A DNA stretch of 34,489 bases from NCBI GenBank assembly GCA_028683555.1, contig JAQUHN010000021.1, positions 1 through 34,489 of the forward strand. The letters run 5' to 3'. The notes below the pieces were generated by a model. That model did no database searches. It saw only the letters and a list, made by a program, of their open reading frames with translations, and had not been told where the DNA came from. The translations under genes and the position numbers were made by a program. Positions 1-11,743 of the stretch are shown one piece after another (positions within the stretch are counted from its first letter, which is position 1; each line of letters begins with the position of its first letter). Source of the stretch: Geobacteraceae bacterium. GTDB lineage: Bacteria; Desulfobacterota; Desulfuromonadia; Geobacterales; Geobacteraceae.

Positions 1-1237
1 GCACACCGATATAGGCGTCACTCCTACCGAGCACCAGAGGATCTTTACCCTTTACCGCCAATGCCGCGTTTATTCCAGCCATGAGACCCTGCGCTGCGGC
101 TTCTTCGTATCCGGAGGTACCGTTTATCTGTCCGGCATGGTAAAGGTTTTTAACCGGCTTGGTTTCCAGCGAAGAATGGATCTGGATCGGGTCCACGTAA
201 TCGTATTCGATAGCGTAGGCCGGTCGCATGATCTCCACCGATTCGAGCCCTTCAATCGACCTGTACAAAGCAAACTGCACATCGATGGGCAGTGACGTTG
301 AAAGACCGCTCGGATATACCTCGATAGTATCCATGCCTTCCGGTTCGATAAAACTCTGATGACGGGTTTTTTCCGGAAAACGAACGACTTTATCTTCAAT
401 CGACGGGCAGTAACGCGGGCCGATTCCTTCGATCAAGCCACCATACAAGGGCGACCGATCCAGATTTGCCCGTATTATGTCGTGAGTGCGCTCGTTGGTG
501 TAGGCAATGTGGCAGGGTAGTTGCGGCCGATCGATCCGTTCCGTTGAAAAGGAGAAGGGAACCGGCGGCACATCGCCATACTGCGGTTCCAGTTTACTGA
601 AGTCAATGGTCCGTGCATCGAGTCGTGCCGGTGTTCCCGTCTTCAATCGACCGATTTCAAAACCGGCTTGTCTGAGCGAGTCGGAGAGTCCTACAGCCGG
701 CAGATCCCCTGCCCTGCCTCCGGCATAATTGGTGAGGCCCACATGAATCAGTCCCCGAAGAAACGTGCCGGTGGTAAGGATAACCGTTTTGCCCGGAAAA
801 CGAACTCCTACCCGGGTATCCACTCCCAGCACAACCCCATTTTCAACGTGCAACCCGGTAACCTCGCCCTGCTTCAGTGCAAGATTTTCCTGCTTTTCCA
901 GCACCTGTTTCATACGGGTGCGATACAGAAGCTTGTCTGCTTGAGCCCGCGACGCTCGTACGGCCGGACCCTTCCGGGTATTGAGCGTCCGGAACTGAAT
1001 CCCGGTAGCATCGATGTTTTTGCCCATCTCTCCGCCCAAGGCATCAATTTCCCTCACCAGGTGGCCCTTTGCCAAGCCGCCGATTGCCGGATTGCATGAC
1101 ATGAGAGCGATGGCATCGAGATTGATGGAGAGAAGAAGTGTTGAACATCCCATGCGTGCTGCGGCCAACGCGGCCTCACACCCTGCGTGACCAGCACCTA
1201 CCACGATTACGTCATATTGTTTCTCGTAGACAACCAC
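1..1237 (-). CDS. mnmG: tRNA uridine-5-carboxymethylaminomethyl modification enzyme MnmG (GidA), 3' end cut off by window edge
   Basis: MnmG is the FAD-dependent partner of MnmE and installs the (carboxymethyl)aminomethyl group on wobble uridine 34 of certain tRNAs. I translated the minus strand from a GTG at 1237. The product begins [20 protein letters not shown], containing the GxGxxG dinucleotide-binding motif. Family signatures follow: [43 protein letters not shown], then [20 protein letters not shown] near the left edge. About 412 codons are visible of a family length near 620, so the C-terminal third is missing. The GTG is preceded by AAGGA at suitable spacing. No in-frame stop or frameshift was seen. 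Product identity is very secure; the exact start is likely. Confidence 0.96.
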
Positions 1238-1483
1238 ACTATTTCCTTCTCAAGACTGTTTGTTCTTTATACCCATCTTAGAATGGTTTTTTGTTCTGCC
1301 CAGCGGGGCATATTGTTTCTATGGTTACTCTTTAAACAACTTGTGAAACAACCGGACACAAACCTGGATTCCCGCTATCAGCGACTCTTTTCGGTAGCCT
1401 GATTTTCTATTTCTGCATAACAATGATCCTGCGATACCTCTAAAACAGGGCTCTCAGGAAGAATGTTCCACGTGGAACATTTA
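1238..1483. other. mnmE-mnmG intergenic region carrying parS
   Basis: This is a 246-bp gap between two minus-strand genes. Its right end holds the parS palindrome described separately. A GTGAAACA half-site at 1343-1350 resembles one arm of a parS site but has no matching second arm. The part next to mnmG is AT-rich and could hold the mnmG promoter; a TATAAA lies on the minus strand upstream of the GTG, but no convincing -35 accompanies it. No credible coding sequence fits here. Confidence 0.6.
1464..1479. promoter_or_regulatory. parS: parS centromere-like ParB-binding site
   Basis: TGTTCCACGTGGAACA is a perfect 16-bp palindrome. It fits the bacterial chromosomal parS consensus TGTTNCACGTGNAACA. 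It lies 5 bp past the mnmE stop, about 5.5 kb from the candidate origin. ParB spreads from such sites and, with ParA and SMC, organises and segregates the newly replicated origin. parA and parB commonly lie beyond mnmG and rsmG in this type of locus, which would be just left of the window. That last point is inference. Confidence 0.93.
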
Positions 1484-2854
1484 CTACTTCCCGATACAAA
1501 ACCTGGTAAAGATCTGGTCGAGAATATCATCGGTCGTCGTTTCGCCGGTAACCTCATCCAACGCATGCAGCGCGTCGCGAAGATCAATAGCGGCTATTTC
1601 AAAAGGAATATCAATCGCAAAGTTTTTCAGAAATGAAAGCAGACTTTTTTTCGACCTGTCAAGGGCGTCACGGTGTCGTGCCTGGGAGAGCGCGGTAAAG
1701 TCACGGCCATCCAGAGCCTGTCCATGAACGAAACGTTCAAAGATCGCTGTGCGTAGATCTTCGATACCGGCTCCATCGCGGGCAGAAATGGCAACCACTG
1801 GTGCCGATCCGATTTGCTCGGGCAATTGAAGAACCGTAGGAAGATCTTTTTTATTGGCCACAACCAGGAATGGCCGTTTAAGTACAGCATCCATTATTAG
1901 CATATCTTCATTATCAAACGATTTCGAAGCATCGACCACGAACAGGATCAGATCCGCAAGAGGAATCTTCTCCATGGTAAGCTTCATCCCCTCCTGTTCG
2001 ATCTCGTCCCCCGTGTCACGAATGCCGGCCGTATCGAGCAGAGTGACTGGCAGACCCTTGATATTGACCACTTCTTCTATAATATCGCGAGTGGTACCGG
2101 GAATGGAAGTGACTATTGCCCGCTTCTCTTTCAGCAGGGTGTTGAGCAGACTGGATTTACCCACATTCGGTTTGCCGACTATCAGAACCGAAACCCCCTC
2201 GCGAATTACCTTTCCTTGCTGAAAACCGCTCAACAGCTCTTCGATGAGTTGCAATGAAGTTTGAGTCGCTACCTTGATCTGATGAACGCCGGGCAGATCG
2301 ATATCCTCTTCGGGAAAATCCAGGTATGCTTCGATGAAAGCCAGAGAAGTGACAATACCCTCCTTCACAGCCGCGATCCTTTTCGAAAGAAGGCCCTCCC
2401 GCTGATGCTGGGCCAAGGCAAGAGCGGCCTCTGTCTTGCCACGGATTACTTCGATGACAGCCTCGGCCTGCAACAGGTCGATCCTGCCATTGAGAAACGC
2501 TCTTTTGGTGAACTCACCCGGTTCGGCCAGACGCGCTCCGGCCCGGAGCACCAACTGAAGAACCTTCTGCACAATGAGATAGCCACCGTGGCACTGGATC
2601 TCAAGCACATCCTCACAGGTATAGGAACGAGGTGCCCGCATGAGCACAAGCATCGTCTCATCAACGCAATCGCCGCTATCGGGATCGAGAATCTCCCCAT
2701 AATAAAAGCGGTGGCTCTGAAAGCCACCGCTTGGTTTACGAGAGAAAAAAGACCGTGCGATTTCCTCGGCGGCAGGGCCGCTTACGCGAACGATTCCGAT
2801 ACCCCCCTCACCGAGGGGGGTACTTATGGCGGCAATCGTGTCCTTATGATACAT
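1484..2854 (-). CDS. mnmE: tRNA modification GTPase MnmE (TrmE)
   Basis: MnmE is a dimeric GTPase that works with MnmG to modify wobble U34 of tRNAs. The 456-residue product has the expected N-terminal folate-binding domain (start MYHKDTIAAISTPLGEGG) and a central helical region. The embedded G domain has G1 GKPNVGKS (227-234), GTTRD (253-257), DTAG (274-277) and NKKD (334-337). It ends in the C-terminal motif CIGK, whose Cys is essential in the family. Length is normal. It starts 21 bp after the yidC stop, suggesting co-transcription with the yidC block. A strong inverted repeat lies in codons 11-18. Confidence 0.98.
   Translation of the reverse strand: MYHKDTIAAISTPLGEGGIGIVRVSGPAAEEIARSFFSRKPSGGFQSHRFYYGEILDPDSGDCVDETMLVLMRAPRSYTCEDVLEIQCHGGYLIVQKVLQLVLRAGARLAEPGEFTKRAFLNGRIDLLQAEAVIEVIRGKTEAALALAQHQREGLLSKRIAAVKEGIVTSLAFIEAYLDFPEEDIDLPGVHQIKVATQTSLQLIEELLSGFQQGKVIREGVSVLIVGKPNVGKSSLLNTLLKEKRAIVTSIPGTTRDIIEEVVNIKGLPVTLLDTAGIRDTGDEIEQEGMKLTMEKIPLADLILFVVDASKSFDNEDMLIMDAVLKRPFLVVANKKDLPTVLQLPEQIGSAPVVAISARDGAGIEDLRTAIFERFVHGQALDGRDFTALSQARHRDALDRSKKSLLSFLKNFAIDIPFEIAAIDLRDALHALDEVTGETTTDDILDQIFTRFCIGK
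2800..2822. repeat. Perfect GC-rich inverted repeat inside the start of mnmE
   Basis: The arms TACCCCCCTC and GAGGGGGGTA are 10 bp and perfectly complementary, separated by 3 bases. The repeat begins 32 nt inside mnmE and encodes the conserved TPLGEGG stretch. On the mRNA it would form a strong stem close to the ribosome start site. The protein sequence is conserved in the family, so the stem may follow partly from codon choice. Confidence 0.75.
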
Positions 2855-2875: not shown

Positions 2876-4468
2876 TTAGGCATCCTTGACAGTCTTATTA
2901 ATATAGACCTGCTGTGCAATCGTGAGAACGTTATTGACCAGCCAGTAAATGACCAGGCCGGAAGGGAAATTGAGAAACATGAAAGTAAAAACGATCGGCA
3001 AGGCCATCATCATCTTTGCCTGCATCGGATCCATGCTTGAAGGCGTCATCTTCTGCTGGATAAACATGGTGGCCCCCATAATGATTGGGGTCACATAGTA
3101 CGGATCCTTTGCGGAAAGGTCGGTAATCCAAAGCATGAAAGGTGCATGCCGCAGTTCGATGGAAAACATGAGCGCCTTGTAAAGGGCAAAGAAGACCGGA
3201 ATCTGGACTACCATCGGCAAACAGCCGCCAAGGGGATTGACCTTGTGAGTACGATACAGTTCCATGACCGCCCGGTTCATGGCTTCGCGGTCATTTTTGT
3301 ACTTCTCTTTCAGCTCAGCCATTTTCGGTTGAATCTTCTGCATGTCCTTCATGGACTTGTAACTCTTGTGCGTGAGAGGAAAAAACACCAGTTTTATGAT
3401 GAAGGTGATAATTATGATCGCTATGCCGTAATTATGGGTGTATTTGTAAAAGAATTTCAGAGTATAGAGAAGCGGTTTGGCAATGGCTGAAAACCATCCC
3501 AGGTCAAGCGCCTTTTCCAGTCCCTGTCCCTGTGCCTTCAGAATATCCAAACCCTTGGGGCCAAAGAAAAGACGATAGTCCAGTTGATGGGAATGACCCG
3601 GTAACAGGGTGAACGTTGGTGAAGCAACTAGTGTATCCAGGTAGGACCCGGATCCCTTGTTGATCATGACGGACGCGATACTGTTGCCTTCGGAAAGTAT
3701 TGCCGTGAGAAAATACTTATCCGCATAACCGGTCCAATCGACCTTGGTGTCATACTGTTGCGGTTCTTTGACAAGATCCTTAATCGACTCGGTAGTAAAG
3801 GAGCCATTTTCAAGTGTTACCGCATTGTTCGTCTCCAGGCGACTTAACTTTTGATCGGCCTGGGACGGATAGGGCAGCACCAGGTTCACTTTGCCGGAAA
3901 CACTGTTCGGACCATAATTGGTCAGTTGGGTATCAAGGGCCAGACCATAACCGTCACCGGAAAAAGAGTACGTCTTTTTCACGGAAACCCCCTGAGGCGA
4001 TGTCCAGGAAAACACCAGTTGCTTCTTCTCCGAACCGGTCAGCTTAAGGGACTCGGCACTGGGACTATAAAGTGCCACGGGCAATAATCCGAAACCGGAT
4101 GATTCGGTCCGGAAAACGAAACCATCTGGGCTCGTGGCAGCAACGAGGGACACCGGCGCGCTATCAGGAGCGGAGGTTTCACGGTATTTTTTCAATATCA
4201 GGCTTTTGAGAGATCCGCCCTGATTGGTAAAGACCGCCGTGTACATGTCGGTTTCCACCACAATATCTTTTGCAGCAACGGATTTCTGAGTCGGCTGCTG
4301 TGGTTGGGGCGAAACAGAAGGCGGAGCGCTCTGACTAAGCTGAGCAGACGAAGCCGCTACCTGAACCGGATTCTGAACCGGATTTTTTTCAGGTGGCGGA
4401 AAAAGGAGACTATAGCCATAAAAAACAGCCAACGAGAGAACTACTGCGATTAAAGCACGTTTTTCCAT
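2876..4468 (-). CDS. yidC: Membrane protein insertase YidC
   Basis: YidC/OxaA inserts and folds inner-membrane proteins, alone or with SecYEG. The 530-residue product has the Gram-negative layout. A signal-anchor helix (about residues 5-23) is followed by a Pro/Gln/Ser-rich linker, then the large periplasmic P1 beta domain (about 65-300). The conserved multi-helix insertase core runs from about 345 to the end. The core contains ITFIIKLVFFPLTHKSY, with Lys359 where many homologues have the substrate-contacting Arg. It also has the cytoplasmic coiled hairpin (KIQPKMAELKEKYKND) and NPLGGCLPMVVQIPVFFALY. The start ATG at 4468 lies 15 bp from the yidD stop. No jag gene follows it. Confidence 0.97.
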   Translation of the reverse strand: MEKRALIAVVLSLAVFYGYSLLFPPPEKNPVQNPVQVAASSAQLSQSAPPSVSPQPQQPTQKSVAAKDIVVETDMYTAVFTNQGGSLKSLILKKYRETSAPDSAPVSLVAATSPDGFVFRTESSGFGLLPVALYSPSAESLKLTGSEKKQLVFSWTSPQGVSVKKTYSFSGDGYGLALDTQLTNYGPNSVSGKVNLVLPYPSQADQKLSRLETNNAVTLENGSFTTESIKDLVKEPQQYDTKVDWTGYADKYFLTAILSEGNSIASVMINKGSGSYLDTLVASPTFTLLPGHSHQLDYRLFFGPKGLDILKAQGQGLEKALDLGWFSAIAKPLLYTLKFFYKYTHNYGIAIIIITFIIKLVFFPLTHKSYKSMKDMQKIQPKMAELKEKYKNDREAMNRAVMELYRTHKVNPLGGCLPMVVQIPVFFALYKALMFSIELRHAPFMLWITDLSAKDPYYVTPIIMGATMFIQQKMTPSSMDPMQAKMMMALPIVFTFMFLNFPSGLVIYWLVNNVLTIAQQVYINKTVKDA

Positions 4469-5042: not shown

Positions 5043-5192
5043 TTATTTGCTCGCGATCTGGACAGACAGTTTTTTCCGACCTTTAGCGCGACGCCGTTTG
5101 ATCACGAGTCTGCCGTTTTTGGTAGCCATCCTGACCAGAAAGCCATGGGTTCTTTTGCGAGAAACATTACTTGGTTGATAAGTTCTTTTCAT
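5043..5192 (-). CDS. rpmH: 50S ribosomal protein L34
   Basis: This 49-residue gene encodes L34, a small basic protein of the large ribosomal subunit. The translation starts [20 protein letters not shown] and continues [20 protein letters not shown] before a short tail ending IASK. This matches the family almost throughout; the tail is a few residues longer than the classic 44-46. The ATG at 5192 is preceded by GAAGGAG at about 9 bp, a strong ribosome binding site. It is the first gene of the leftward rpmH-rnpA-yidD-yidC-mnmE run. Confidence 0.97.
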
Positions 5193-5242
5193 ATCCAGCA
5201 ACTCCTTCGTAAAGGTTGATATCAGCGTGAAGCAAAATATAA

Positions 5243-5272
5243 TTTTTAGCCGTAATCACTATACTTTGTCAA
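5243..5272 (-). promoter_or_regulatory. Possible sigma-70 promoter for the rpmH operon
   Basis: On the minus strand a perfect -35 hexamer TTGACA (5267-5272) is followed 17-18 bp later by an A-rich hexamer (CTAAAA or TAAAAA, 5243-5249). The -35 is convincing and the -10 is weak. It lies about 50 bp before the rpmH ATG and points into the operon. Confidence 0.4.
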
Positions 5273-5420
5273 GTCAATTTTTACTTTTTCCGGAAAAAAT
5301 AGCCTTGCAAATTAAGGTCTTCTCTGCTAGTGTTCAATACTCCCTAGAAGTGATGTTGAAAGCACCTTTCCCGATATCAAATTTTAGTATTAACCTACCG
5401 ATATAATTAGCATTTTTGTT

Positions 5421-5452
5421 TTATCAACATGTGTTGATAAGCCTGTGCAAAA
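5421..5452. promoter_or_regulatory. Upstream DnaA-box cluster
   Basis: Three DnaA-box-like 9-mers sit together. TTATCAACA (5421-5429, plus strand) and its inverted copy TGTTGATAA (5432-5440) are separated by 2 bp. TGTGCAAAA (5444-5452) is TTTTGCACA on the minus strand and fits the relaxed consensus TTWTNCACA. The first two differ from the classic TTATCCACA at one position. They lie just before the preferred dnaA start. Confidence 0.78.
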
Positions 5453-5477
5453 ACCCCTTGACGCGAGTATATTTTTT

Positions 5478-6830
5478 ATGGAAAAGGTCTGGCTCGAAGT
5501 ACTTTCCAATATGGAGAAGGTTATTACCTCTCACACCTTCACCACGTGGATCCAGCCGCTGAAATTTCTTGATGCGAAGGGGCATGTGCTGTATTTGGAA
5601 ACCCCCAACAACTTTTTCCGTGAAATGGTAAAGGAAAACTATCTCTCCATGATAGAAGAGGCAGCTTCCGCCATCAGCCGGAAAAAAATCGTCATAGAAC
5701 TGCGACTGTCGCCGAAAGGCATGCAGGAACCGGCAGCCGGCGAACCAATAGCAATGCCAGAGGAAAAAGAGATTTCTCTTCCTCCGTCCTCCAGGGGTAC
5801 CCCTGATTTCTGCTCCAACCTCAATCCCAAATATACCTTTGATACCTTCGTCTGCGGTGCAGGAAACCAGTTTGCCCATGCCGCGGCGCAAGCCGTAGCG
5901 AACAAACCGGGAACCAATTACAATCCGCTTTTTATTTACGGTGGTGTCGGCCTCGGCAAGACTCACCTGCTGACAGCAATCGGCAACCACATCCTCAGCA
6001 TGAACAGTTCGGCACGCATCTGTCTCTATACGTCCGAAAAATTCATGAACGAGATGATAAATTGTATCCGCTACAAGAAAATGGAAGAATTCAGAAACAA
6101 GTTCAGGAGTATGGACGTTCTGCTCATTGACGATATCCAGTTCATGGCCGGTAAGGAAGCAACCCAGGAAGAGTTTTTCCATACCTTCAATTCGCTCCAC
6201 GAAGCTCACAAGCAGATTGTCGTATCATCGGACAAATTTCCCAAGGACATGGCCGGTCTGGAACAGCGACTCCGTTCACGATTTGAATGGGGCTTGATAG
6301 CCGATATCCAGCCACCGGATATTGAAACGAAAGTTGCCATCCTGAAAAGAAAATCGGAAATAGATACCATATCGCTGCCCGATGACGTTGCCCTGTTTCT
6401 TGCCTCCAGTTCCACAAGCAACGTCCGCGAACTGGAAGGTATGCTGATTCGCCTCGGAGCGTATGCCAGCCTTACCGGCAACGAAATAACCCTTTCTATG
6501 GCGAAAGAGGTTCTCAAGGACATTATCGTGGAAAAGAACCGCGAGGTATCGGTTGAAATGATTCAGAAATTCGTCGCCGAGTTCTTTTCCATCAAAATAT
6601 CAGACTTGAAATCCGATAAGCGGTTGAAAAATCTGGTTATTCCACGACAGATAGCAATATATCTCTGCCGTGATCTTACCAAATCCTCCTATCCGGAAAT
6701 TGGCGAGAAATTCGGTGGCAAAGACCATTCGACCATTATTCACTCGTTCAAAAAGATCACGAAACTCATTTCCTCGGATTCCGAGATGAAAAATACCATT
6801 GAAACCCTCAAACGAGGGTTGTTGGAATAA
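5478..6830 (+). CDS. dnaA: Chromosomal replication initiator protein DnaA
   Basis: DnaA is the AAA+ initiator that binds DnaA boxes, unwinds oriC and loads the helicase. The N-terminal domain I starts MEKVWLEVLSNMEKVI, and a variable linker follows. The AAA+ core contains Walker A GGVGLGKT (from about residue 155) and Walker B LLIDDIQF (from about 215). Further on are the sensor region VVSSDKFPKD and the arginine-finger region LEQRLRSRFEWGL. The C-terminal helix-turn-helix has the signature GKDHSTIIHS (near 415). An in-frame GTG at 5445 would add 11 residues. I prefer the ATG at 5478 because it puts the conserved domain-I Trp at residue 5 and leaves the DnaA box at 5444-5452 outside the gene. 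Neither start has a strong Shine-Dalgarno. Confidence 0.97.
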   Translation: MEKVWLEVLSNMEKVITSHTFTTWIQPLKFLDAKGHVLYLETPNNFFREMVKENYLSMIEEAASAISRKKIVIELRLSPKGMQEPAAGEPIAMPEEKEISLPPSSRGTPDFCSNLNPKYTFDTFVCGAGNQFAHAAAQAVANKPGTNYNPLFIYGGVGLGKTHLLTAIGNHILSMNSSARICLYTSEKFMNEMINCIRYKKMEEFRNKFRSMDVLLIDDIQFMAGKEATQEEFFHTFNSLHEAHKQIVVSSDKFPKDMAGLEQRLRSRFEWGLIADIQPPDIETKVAILKRKSEIDTISLPDDVALFLASSSTSNVRELEGMLIRLGAYASLTGNEITLSMAKEVLKDIIVEKNREVSVEMIQKFVAEFFSIKISDLKSDKRLKNLVIPRQIAIYLCRDLTKSSYPEIGEKFGGKDHSTIIHSFKKITKLISSDSEMKNTIETLKRGLLE

Positions 6831-7054
6831 CCGGGATAAATTGTTTGTAACATGGTCGAACCTGTGGAAAAAAAATTGCCCTGTTGATAACCGTTACAAA
6901 GCAAGGAATTGATACACAATCCTGCGGTACCAGAAAAGCTTTGATTTAAAACGATAAAAAACGGTTATCAACAATTCAACAGGCTCTACTTTTTACTACT
7001 ATAAAATCTTTTAAAACCTATAAGTCGTTTAACCTGTGCATACCTGGAGGCATT
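6831..7054 (+). other. oriC: Candidate oriC (dnaA-dnaN intergenic region)
   Basis: This 224-bp gap has several DnaA-box-like 9-mers. TGTGGAAAA at 6863-6871 and TGTTGATAA at 6882-6890 are both on the minus strand. TGATACACA at 6910-6918 has one mismatch. TTATCAACA at 6965-6973 is on the plus strand. TGTGCATAC at 7035-7043 has one mismatch. The right half (about 6930-7030) is very AT-rich and contains trinucleotides like those in bacterial unwinding elements. dnaN follows with a GGAGG ribosome site. Layout resembles known origins between dnaA and dnaN. Location is predicted, not proven. Confidence 0.75.
6965..7020 (+). promoter_or_regulatory. Probable DNA unwinding element with DnaA-trio-like repeats
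   Basis: A DnaA box TTATCAACA (6965-6973) is followed by a short less AT-rich spacer, then CTACTTTTTACTACTATA (6986-7003) and an A/T-only tract. CTA on this strand is TAG on the other, which is the DnaA-trio unit described for the Bacillus subtilis origin. The trios occur at 6986-6988, 6996-6998 and 6999-7001. The phase slips by one base between the first and the last two. Confidence 0.6.
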
Positions 7055-8173
7055 ATGGAATTTGCCATTGCAAAGGAAACATTTCTGAAAGCGTTGCAGC
7101 GTGTTCAGGGAATCATCGAAAACAGAAAAACCATGCCGATTCTCTCCAACGTACTGATCGACGCCAAACCGGAAAAAATCGAACTCATTGCCACCGACCT
7201 GGAAGTGGGAATGAAGGGCTCCTACCCGGCAGACGTCACCAAAACCGGAAGAATAACGGTTTCCGCAAAGAAACTTTATGAAATCATCAAAGAACTACCG
7301 GAAGAAGAGATTCGATTTTCCACCAGAGAAAACGACTGGGTTGATCTTCGCTGCGGCAAGGCCCATTTCAACCTCGTAGGGCTTTCCCCTGATGAATTTC
7401 CCTCTATTCCTGCTGCCGATGAAAGCAGTTTTCTCAAACTCAACAGCTCGCTGATTCGGGAAATGATCGAAATGACAGCATTTGCCATCTGTCACGACGA
7501 AACCAAATACAATCTGAACGGTATTTTCATCAAGGCACTGGAAGAAAACGGAAAAAACCTCCTACGGATGGTGGCTACGGACGGCCATCGACTTGCCATG
7601 GCGGAAAAGGAAATTCCGGATGTTGCAGCTGCAGATTTGAAAAACGGCATCATTTTTCCGAAAAAAGGCATTTTCGAACTGAAAAAGCTGACCGATGACA
7701 ACGACAGTGAAATTATGATTTCTTTTTTTGATAACAGTTCCGTTGTAAAAAAAGACGATACCGTAGTTGTCATGAGACTGGTTGACGGCTACTTCCCCGA
7801 CTATACACGGGTCCTGCCTGCCGATAACGATAAAGTCACCACCATCAGACGAGAAGATTTCATCCATTCCCTACGCAGGATGGCAATTCTTTCCAGTGAA
7901 AAATTCAAAGGGATAATGATGGAGTTGAAAAACGGCATCATGGAAATATCTGCCAGCAACCCTGACCTGGGTGATGCACGGGAAACCCTGGAAGTCACGT
8001 ACACGGGTCCTGATCTTGCTATTCGCTTCAATGCCCGCTATCTTATCGATTCCCTTTCTGTCATGTCACAGGAATTTGTGGACATCGAATTGAAGGATGA
8101 GCTTTCACCGGCAGTTCTGAAGCCTCACAAGGCAGAAGGTTTTCTGACGGTAATTATGCCAATGAGGGTCTAA
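7055..8173 (+). CDS. dnaN: DNA polymerase III beta subunit (sliding clamp)
   Basis: DnaN forms the ring-shaped clamp that tethers DNA polymerase III and many repair proteins to DNA. The 372-residue product starts MEFAIAKETFLKALQRVQG, then NRKTMPILSNVLIDA, typical of the clamp's first domain. It ends with the usual MPMRV-type C-terminus (TVIMPMRV), part of the protein-binding pocket. Length is normal. The ATG follows GGAGG at about 4-5 bp. The gene begins directly downstream of the candidate oriC. Confidence 0.98.
   Translation: MEFAIAKETFLKALQRVQGIIENRKTMPILSNVLIDAKPEKIELIATDLEVGMKGSYPADVTKTGRITVSAKKLYEIIKELPEEEIRFSTRENDWVDLRCGKAHFNLVGLSPDEFPSIPAADESSFLKLNSSLIREMIEMTAFAICHDETKYNLNGIFIKALEENGKNLLRMVATDGHRLAMAEKEIPDVAAADLKNGIIFPKKGIFELKKLTDDNDSEIMISFFDNSSVVKKDDTVVVMRLVDGYFPDYTRVLPADNDKVTTIRREDFIHSLRRMAILSSEKFKGIMMELKNGIMEISASNPDLGDARETLEVTYTGPDLAIRFNARYLIDSLSVMSQEFVDIELKDELSPAVLKPHKAEGFLTVIMPMRV

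Positions 8174-8253: not shown

Positions 8254-11743
<3,490 letters not shown>

Follow-up and report, generated by a model that had tools for sequence, protein, structure and literature searches.

The closest described systems are the bipartite chromosomal origins (oriC) of B. subtilis, C. difficile and H. pylori. They combine an rnpA-rpmH-dnaA-dnaN gene context with DnaA boxes in both gaps around dnaA and an A+T-rich trio element in the dnaA-dnaN gap. The C. difficile trio sequence is 5'-CACCTACTACTATTACTACTATGA-3' and opening occurs in the downstream gap, toward dnaN (PMC7561715). A basal unwinding system (BUS) consists of one or more DnaA boxes, a spacer and DnaA-trios; the search rule for it demands three or more NAN trios no farther than 16 bp from a DnaA box that has two mismatches at most (PMC8287927). 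A tandem box pair with the stronger box upstream is present in 57% of predicted BUS and is not obligatory (PMC8287927, PMC6669920). Boxes beside a likely dnaA promoter are reported for the autoregulated dnaA genes of E. coli, B. subtilis and Streptomyces (PMC8203912). In Desulfuromonas soudanensis, Ori-Finder boxes are located 3' of dnaA (PMC4914508).

The window, i.e., the whole stretch of DNA analysed here, is one entire contig (C128) of 34,489 bases. It belongs to an assembly of 3.88 Mb in 293 contigs which is 93.5% complete. According to Pfam the gene order is yidC, rnpA, rpmH, dnaA, dnaN, a recF-like ATPase gene, gyrB and gyrA. The closest named DnaA, from a Desulfuromonadales metagenome assembly (L001), is 71% identical across residues 103-449. 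Of 58 genomes searched, 56 yielded DnaA, the one studied here among them, and the dnaA surroundings were compared in 50 (30 best plus 20 more). Three of these loci (L103, L108, L112) start too near dnaA to include rpmH, and L095 ends before dnaN. The features of the window are as follows.

5043..5192, minus strand: rpmH, encoding ribosomal protein L34 (Pfam PF00468 with E 9e-25 for the stretch 5043-5198); borders the upstream gap on the left
5305..5333, plus strand: promoter-like element TTGCAA-17-TAGTGT, possible dnaA promoter, conserved across the order
5421..5429, plus strand: DnaA box A, TTATCAACA, exact; upstream module, conserved across the order
5432..5440, minus strand: DnaA box B, TTATCAACA, exact; faces box A across a 2 bp gap
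5444..5452, minus strand: DnaA box C, TTTTGCACA, two mismatches; 3 bp from box B
5478..6830, plus strand: dnaA, 450 aa, with Pfam domains DnaA_N, Bac_DnaA and Bac_DnaA_C
6842..6850, minus strand: weak box-like site TTACAAACA, two mismatches; many relatives have better boxes at this position
6863..6871, minus strand: DnaA box TTTTCCACA, one mismatch
6882..6890, minus strand: DnaA box TTATCAACA, exact
6965..6973, plus strand: DnaA box TTATCAACA, exact; anchor of the putative unwinding element, with the first trio 12 bp on
6973..6981, plus strand: second, weak tandem box AATTCAACA, three mismatches; 4 bp ahead of the first trio
6986..7001, plus strand: DnaA-trio tract, top strand CTA CTT / T / TTA CTA CTA; two trios, the extra base 6992 and three shifted trios
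6986..7030, no strand: A+T-rich stretch where the duplex is proposed to open; 20-27.5% G+C in the 40-base windows that begin at 6981, 6991 and 7001
7055..8173, plus strand: dnaN, Pfam DNA_pol3_beta, three domains; right border of the downstream gap

Clusters of DnaA boxes thus flank dnaA on both sides, as in a bipartite oriC. Judged by sequence, one part, the downstream one, contains a putative duplex-opening element with trios and low G+C. In all probability the locus is the chromosomal oriC, consisting of two parts around dnaA of which the upstream part would be looped to the downstream trio opening. The overall layout is of a known kind; what goes beyond it is a three-box module ahead of dnaA and a register step in the trio tract. 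Compared with the bipartite origins named above, the window has fewer boxes, the upstream pair is in this order nearly always TTATCAACA, and the trios do not stay in one register.

DnaA boxes in both gaps

A first-pass annotation had listed three box-like 9-mers ahead of dnaA and up to five behind it, with TTATCAACA in four copies shared by both clusters. This inventory proved accurate. Upstream are two exact TTATCAACA and TTTTGCACA with two mismatches. Downstream six sites have at most two mismatches (6842, 6863, 6882, 6910, 6965, 7035), three of them at most one. All four copies of TTATCAACA are exact, two per gap, and they are the sole exact TTATCMACA sites of the window; the average over shuffled windows is 0.29, and in 100 shuffles four are never reached. 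The upper part of the upstream gap holds two further box-like sites with two mismatches each (5214, 5354), and TTATCAACC is located at 5173-5181 within the start of rpmH. The dnaA gene itself has no box at one mismatch or less.

The exact box counts of either gap are reached by 0 of 200 shuffles. With one mismatch allowed, the counts are matched in 2 of 200 shuffles for the upstream and in 0 of 200 for the downstream gap. With two mismatches allowed, the six boxes of the downstream gap are equalled in 2 of 200 shuffles and the five of the upstream gap in 25 of 200. The upstream count at two mismatches has at most weak evidential value.

Is TTATCAACA a lineage-specific box, as had been suggested on account of its preference over the classic TTATCCACA? 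For the upstream pair this holds: across the order, 94 of 96 box A and box B sites have A at position 6. It fails for the downstream boxes (at most one mismatch), where position 6 is A in 90, C in 80 and G in 2 sites. At the same position, 25 of 48 copies of box C have C, 22 have A and 1 has T. Both box forms occur in other phyla. A proposed genome-wide count yielded 47 sites for TTATCAACA in the entire assembly (27 for the reversed control), of which four fall within the 1,553 bases at dnaA, and 30 for TTATCCACA (6 for the reversed control). The enrichment of TTATCCACA exceeds that of TTATCAACA, and a genome-wide preference for TTATCAACA was rejected. Because TTATCCACA is not rare genome-wide, the preference is local. 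What is unique is the arrangement: nowhere else in the whole assembly do two exact TTATCMACA sites face each other within 30 bp, as they do at 5421-5440. As a DnaA box TTATCAACA is already known, in Mollicutes; it was printed as the phytoplasma box under a mollicute consensus TT(T/A)TCAACA, the validity of which was doubted there (PMC3322544). It is also one predicted box on the linear chromosome of Cyanothece 51142 (PMC4674748).

Two other places in the genome drew attention. On contig C216 (L172) two TTATCCACA in the same orientation are located at 4284-4323, 31 bases apart from start to start, spanning the end of one gene and the gap ahead of the next. The neighbours are presumably a folE2-like and a glycosyltransferase-like gene. 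This pair could be a DnaA-titrating or regulatory site. Contig C210 (L171; 5.4 kb) carries another DnaA homologue (681-2105, minus strand), a divergent one with 29% identity and all three Pfam DnaA domains. The neighbouring genes appear phage-like by eye, and one TTATCAACA lies about 700 bases from the homologue's gene.

The putative downstream unwinding element and its register

The A+T-rich tract with CTA triplets beside a box, which the first-pass annotation had placed behind dnaA, is CTACTTTTTACTACTA at 6986-7001, next to the box at 6965-6973. The 40-base windows that start from 6961 to 7001 have 20-35% G+C. After the box at 6965-6973 and the overlapping one at 6973-6981 follow GGCT and then CTACTTTTTACTACTATAAAATC. 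By the published search rule this is a predicted BUS: the box at 6965 has no mismatch, the spacer is 12 bp, and the top strand in the first register reads CTA CTT TTT. Tandem boxes of which the first is stronger (0 mismatches at 6965, 3 at 6973), CTA (3'-GAT-5') trios and a first-box spacer inside the reported peak of 10-13 bp are shared with described BUS (PMC8287927, PMC6669920).

Relatives were searched for a box with at most three mismatches followed by at least three consecutive CTA, CTG, TTA or CTT trios. Such tracts are present on the plus strand of the dnaA-dnaN gap in 37 of 49 order loci; on its minus strand they are found in 0 of 49, and in the 300 bp before dnaA in 0 of 49 on either strand. 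Since the tracts are confined to the plus strand of this gap, opening is placed there, toward dnaN. In the window the duplex would most likely open at about 6986-7030. By eye, the downstream boxes of the order loci tend toward a constant position relative to the dnaA stop.

The tract differs from described BUS in one respect. A continuous single register of CTA trios is absent: an extra base, T 6992, follows the second trio (CTA CTT), the later trios (TTA CTA CTA) are shifted by one relative to the boxes, and the main block is in register 1. To classify relatives a fixed rule was used: a locus is stepped when its longest trio block is one base off the register fixed by the first trio. On this basis 28 of 33 classified loci of families f1 and f2 are stepped (25 of 30 in f1, 3 of 3 in f2). 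The five in-register f1 loci include two ties, L082 and L086, that also contain a stepped block. All nine classified f3 loci are in register. Elsewhere in the class, 5 of the 13 loci classified from other orders are stepped; none of the eight classified phylum loci has the same step, and one has a different step (register 2). Named loci, mostly from other phyla, are never stepped (0 of 47 classified), and the closest named relative, L001, is in register. Unclassified are 1 locus of f1, 1 of f2, 5 of f4, 2 loci from the class set (L217 and, from f4, L224), 10 of the phylum set and 21 named ones; a usable gap is missing in 1 f1, 2 phylum and 12 named loci. L089 and L120 have no tract by the rule and appear stepped by eye.

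Pattern searches over whole genomes were less informative. A loose trio-spacing pattern over the order was discarded as too unspecific, with the reversed control higher in nearly every genome. The strict pattern CMACA-N2-8-CTA-N5-TACTACT is present in 29 of 141 order genomes (25 of f1/f2 and 4 of f4; twice in G038) and its reversed control in 27 of 141; the count by itself therefore shows nothing. The matches are meaningful because they adjoin dnaA, and only for that reason: in 19 of 20 genomes with a known dnaA position the match is directly 3' of dnaA, G037 being the exception.

The predicted opening element changes in type inside one order. The f3 tracts (L122-L125) keep one register with up to six trios, and some f4 tracts (L126-L130) drift to CTAATAATAATAA-like forms; none of six f4 loci (L126-L130, L224) gave a classifiable tract. 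In L118 (G038) the downstream half of the origin, trio tract included, seems tandem-duplicated (gap of 537 bases versus about 220), which gives two predicted opening sites.

Does the step have a meaning? Strand separation by B. subtilis DnaA became slower when one base was deleted from the trios and recovered when three were deleted (PMC6669920). The DnaA oligomer grips two bases per trio and leaves the third free, and trios are degenerate (PMC10721633); an additional unheld base is therefore conceivable. One explanation, for which the chances are nearly even, is that the step means nothing: the first CTA would be a spacer and DnaA would begin on the second trio block. This block by itself contains 2-4 trios, and degenerate trios held at two of three bases (PMC10721633) fit the explanation. 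So does the history of the step. On the DnaA tree (L082, L086, L089 and L120 labelled stepped by hand) it requires at least seven changes; therefore it is inherited in blocks, with several gains or losses. It is absent in three classified f1 loci and in L001. Against a mere spacer speaks the position of the first CTA, which is mostly that of an in-register trio start, 12-13 bp from the first box or 4-5 bp from the second. In addition, the later trios hold the +1 register although the intervening bases vary: the 28 stepped f1/f2 loci have 17 distinct 13-base tracts (by eye).

The other explanation, which we regard as possible and somewhat doubtful, is that the step is selected in families f1 and f2, and that DnaA moves four bases at one protomer or nucleates off the register set by the boxes. 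If true, DnaA in these families would naturally depart from strict three-base stepping, and the in-register f3 loci would provide a built-in control. The motif NEMI, residues 191-194 of the window's DnaA, which we take to match B. subtilis Asn187/Ile190, was considered as a cause. It is kept in stepped f1/f2 and in in-register f3 proteins alike; therefore none of its residues accounts for the step. Seventeen DnaA positions divide the stepped f1/f2 proteins from those of f3 and the named loci, a division that kinship alone could explain. Titles and abstract openings yielded no report of a break in trio register, which is weak evidence of absence.

The upstream module and a possible dnaA promoter

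Ahead of dnaA the three boxes form a module at 5421-5452: box A points to the right, box B faces it after 2 bp, and box C follows after 3 bp in the orientation of B. The inverted pair, TTATCAACA-nn-TGTTGATAA, is present in 48 of 49 usable order loci when up to two mismatches are allowed. Among all 50 loci it is exact in 26, has one mismatch in 18, two in 3 and three in 1; of the remaining two, L113 retains a single box and the sequence of L103 is cut off. With at most four mismatches in 27 the three-box module is found in 46 of 49 usable order loci and in 0 of 245 shuffles.

Among 15 additional class loci 8 have the module; 14 of the 15 are from other orders, and 7 of these have it, while the fifteenth, L224, belongs to this order. 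So do 17 of 20 phylum loci, which were picked because their genomes contain the pair. Among 79 named loci, some of them counted twice, the spacing is 2 and 3 bp in 14, 3 and 2 in 16, and 3 and 3 in 15. The 2,3 form includes Nitrospira, Methylomirabilota, Clostridium and Selenomonas. The 3,2 or 3,3 forms, which many Bacillota loci have in contrast to the window, include Bacillus and Paenibacillus. The three-box module 5' of dnaA is present in several phyla and goes beyond the known layout. The Streptomyces dnaA promoter has a head-to-head DnaA-box pair. A literature search by titles and abstract openings found no report of a head-to-head or three-box dnaA module.

A pattern search for the inverted pair alone (at most one mismatch) gave 96 of 141 order genomes with one copy each (reversed control 0 of 141) and 25 of 297 genomes of the phylum sample (reversed control 2 of 297). 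Twenty of the pair-bearing phylum genomes are outside the order. Nineteen of these have a dnaA match, and in 17 the pair is located 23-183 bp upstream of dnaA. As to the others, G239 has the pair at four places away from dnaA, the dnaA match of G180 is partial and G281 is without one.

The conserved element at 5300-5333 resembles a dnaA promoter. CCTTGCAA is present 5' of dnaA in 42 of 50 order loci; in 37 of these 42 TAnnnT follows exactly 17 bases downstream, and in 37 TGn precedes it. Throughout the conserved stretch, TAGCCTTGCAAATT...TCTCTGCTAGTGT, the flanks of the -35 region seem better kept than a promoter requires. A TATAAT at 5402-5407 was a competing candidate for the dnaA promoter, but by eye only the closest relatives share it, and therefore the TTGCAA element is preferred. 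A generic sigma-70 scan reported neither of the two, and its single site (5216-5243) equals chance expectation.

What then is the function of the module? It could serve dnaA autoregulation alone. We assign a real, if lesser, chance to a one-part origin in the dnaA-dnaN gap, with the module as an autoregulation operator that has no role in initiation. Such an origin agrees with the lack of trio tracts before dnaA in the 49 loci. The distances of the module agree with it as well: it keeps its distance to rpmH (190-241 bp in loci containing rpmH; about 225 bp in the window) and to the CCTTGCAAA element (91-118 bp past it, where present), not to dnaA (27 to 349 bp, L103 and L113 excluded). Steady spacing to CCTTGCAAA and variable spacing to dnaA look as if the module were promoter-tied. 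Autoregulation of dnaA by DnaA is documented in several bacteria, and their boxes also lie beside a likely promoter (PMC8203912); the fixed inverted/direct three-box module distinguishes the window from these. However, autoregulation and initiation are not exclusive. Furthermore, the upstream part of the bipartite C. difficile origin is described as being without a clear trio, yet both parts were required for opening in vitro (PMC7561715). By analogy with B. subtilis, C. difficile and H. pylori, and from the architecture, we infer that both halves act together, i.e., that the origin is bipartite in function.

Probable origin position and implications

A skew minimum had been named as a check on the origin. 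The whole-chromosome skew of this genome is unusable because the assembly is in 293 contigs; its own contig has the skew minimum at 10,969, some 4 kb away from the downstream gap. Skew was therefore sampled in three complete relatives, in 20 stretches of 20 kb each. We chose the stretches and placed more of them near dnaA, and this spacing determines how wide the intervals are. Two relatives agree with the prediction. In G021 the best split (0.94-0.97 Mb) contains dnaA at 0.963 Mb, and 15 of 500 shuffles reach its score; that of G008 (2.95-2.98 Mb) contains dnaA at 2.965 Mb, and 81 of 500 do so. G012 does not agree: its skew is weak, the best splits are at 1.68-1.81 Mb with dnaA at 1.934 Mb, the score is 0.25 against 0.16 at dnaA, and the higher value is attained in 58 of 500 shuffles. 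Sampled skew moderately supports dnaA as the origin position; the permutation support is modest.

The claim of an origin at dnaA is supported by the gene order, by conserved boxes on both sides and by the box-plus-trio element in the dnaA-dnaN gap. That the boxes mark only DnaA-regulated transcription of dnaA and dnaN, with the origin elsewhere, is very improbable. In its favour, the sampled skew of G012 does not point to dnaA; against it stand the gene order, the trio element and the skew of the other two relatives.

For the two-part origin the following course of events may be envisaged. DnaA would first fill the strong sites, namely the three upstream boxes and, behind dnaA, those at 6863, 6882 and 6965. 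Bound to the module it would repress dnaA and also join a loop with the downstream part, in line with proposals for bipartite origins. From the tandem boxes 6965/6973 it would extend onto the lower strand opposite 6986-7001, stretch this strand and open the A+T-rich duplex toward dnaN. In this family the oligomer would have to cross the one-base step: either one extra base stays unheld, or DnaA begins on the second trio block.

The bipartite layout, studied mainly in Bacillota and Campylobacterota, would accordingly extend to a group that includes Geobacter-like metal reducers. The register step is a direct natural test of the trio model: B. subtilis DnaA opens slowly after a one-base deletion, and most sampled members of the window's family are built with such a step. 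A comparison of stepped and in-register DnaA would tell whether the three-base rule is strict.
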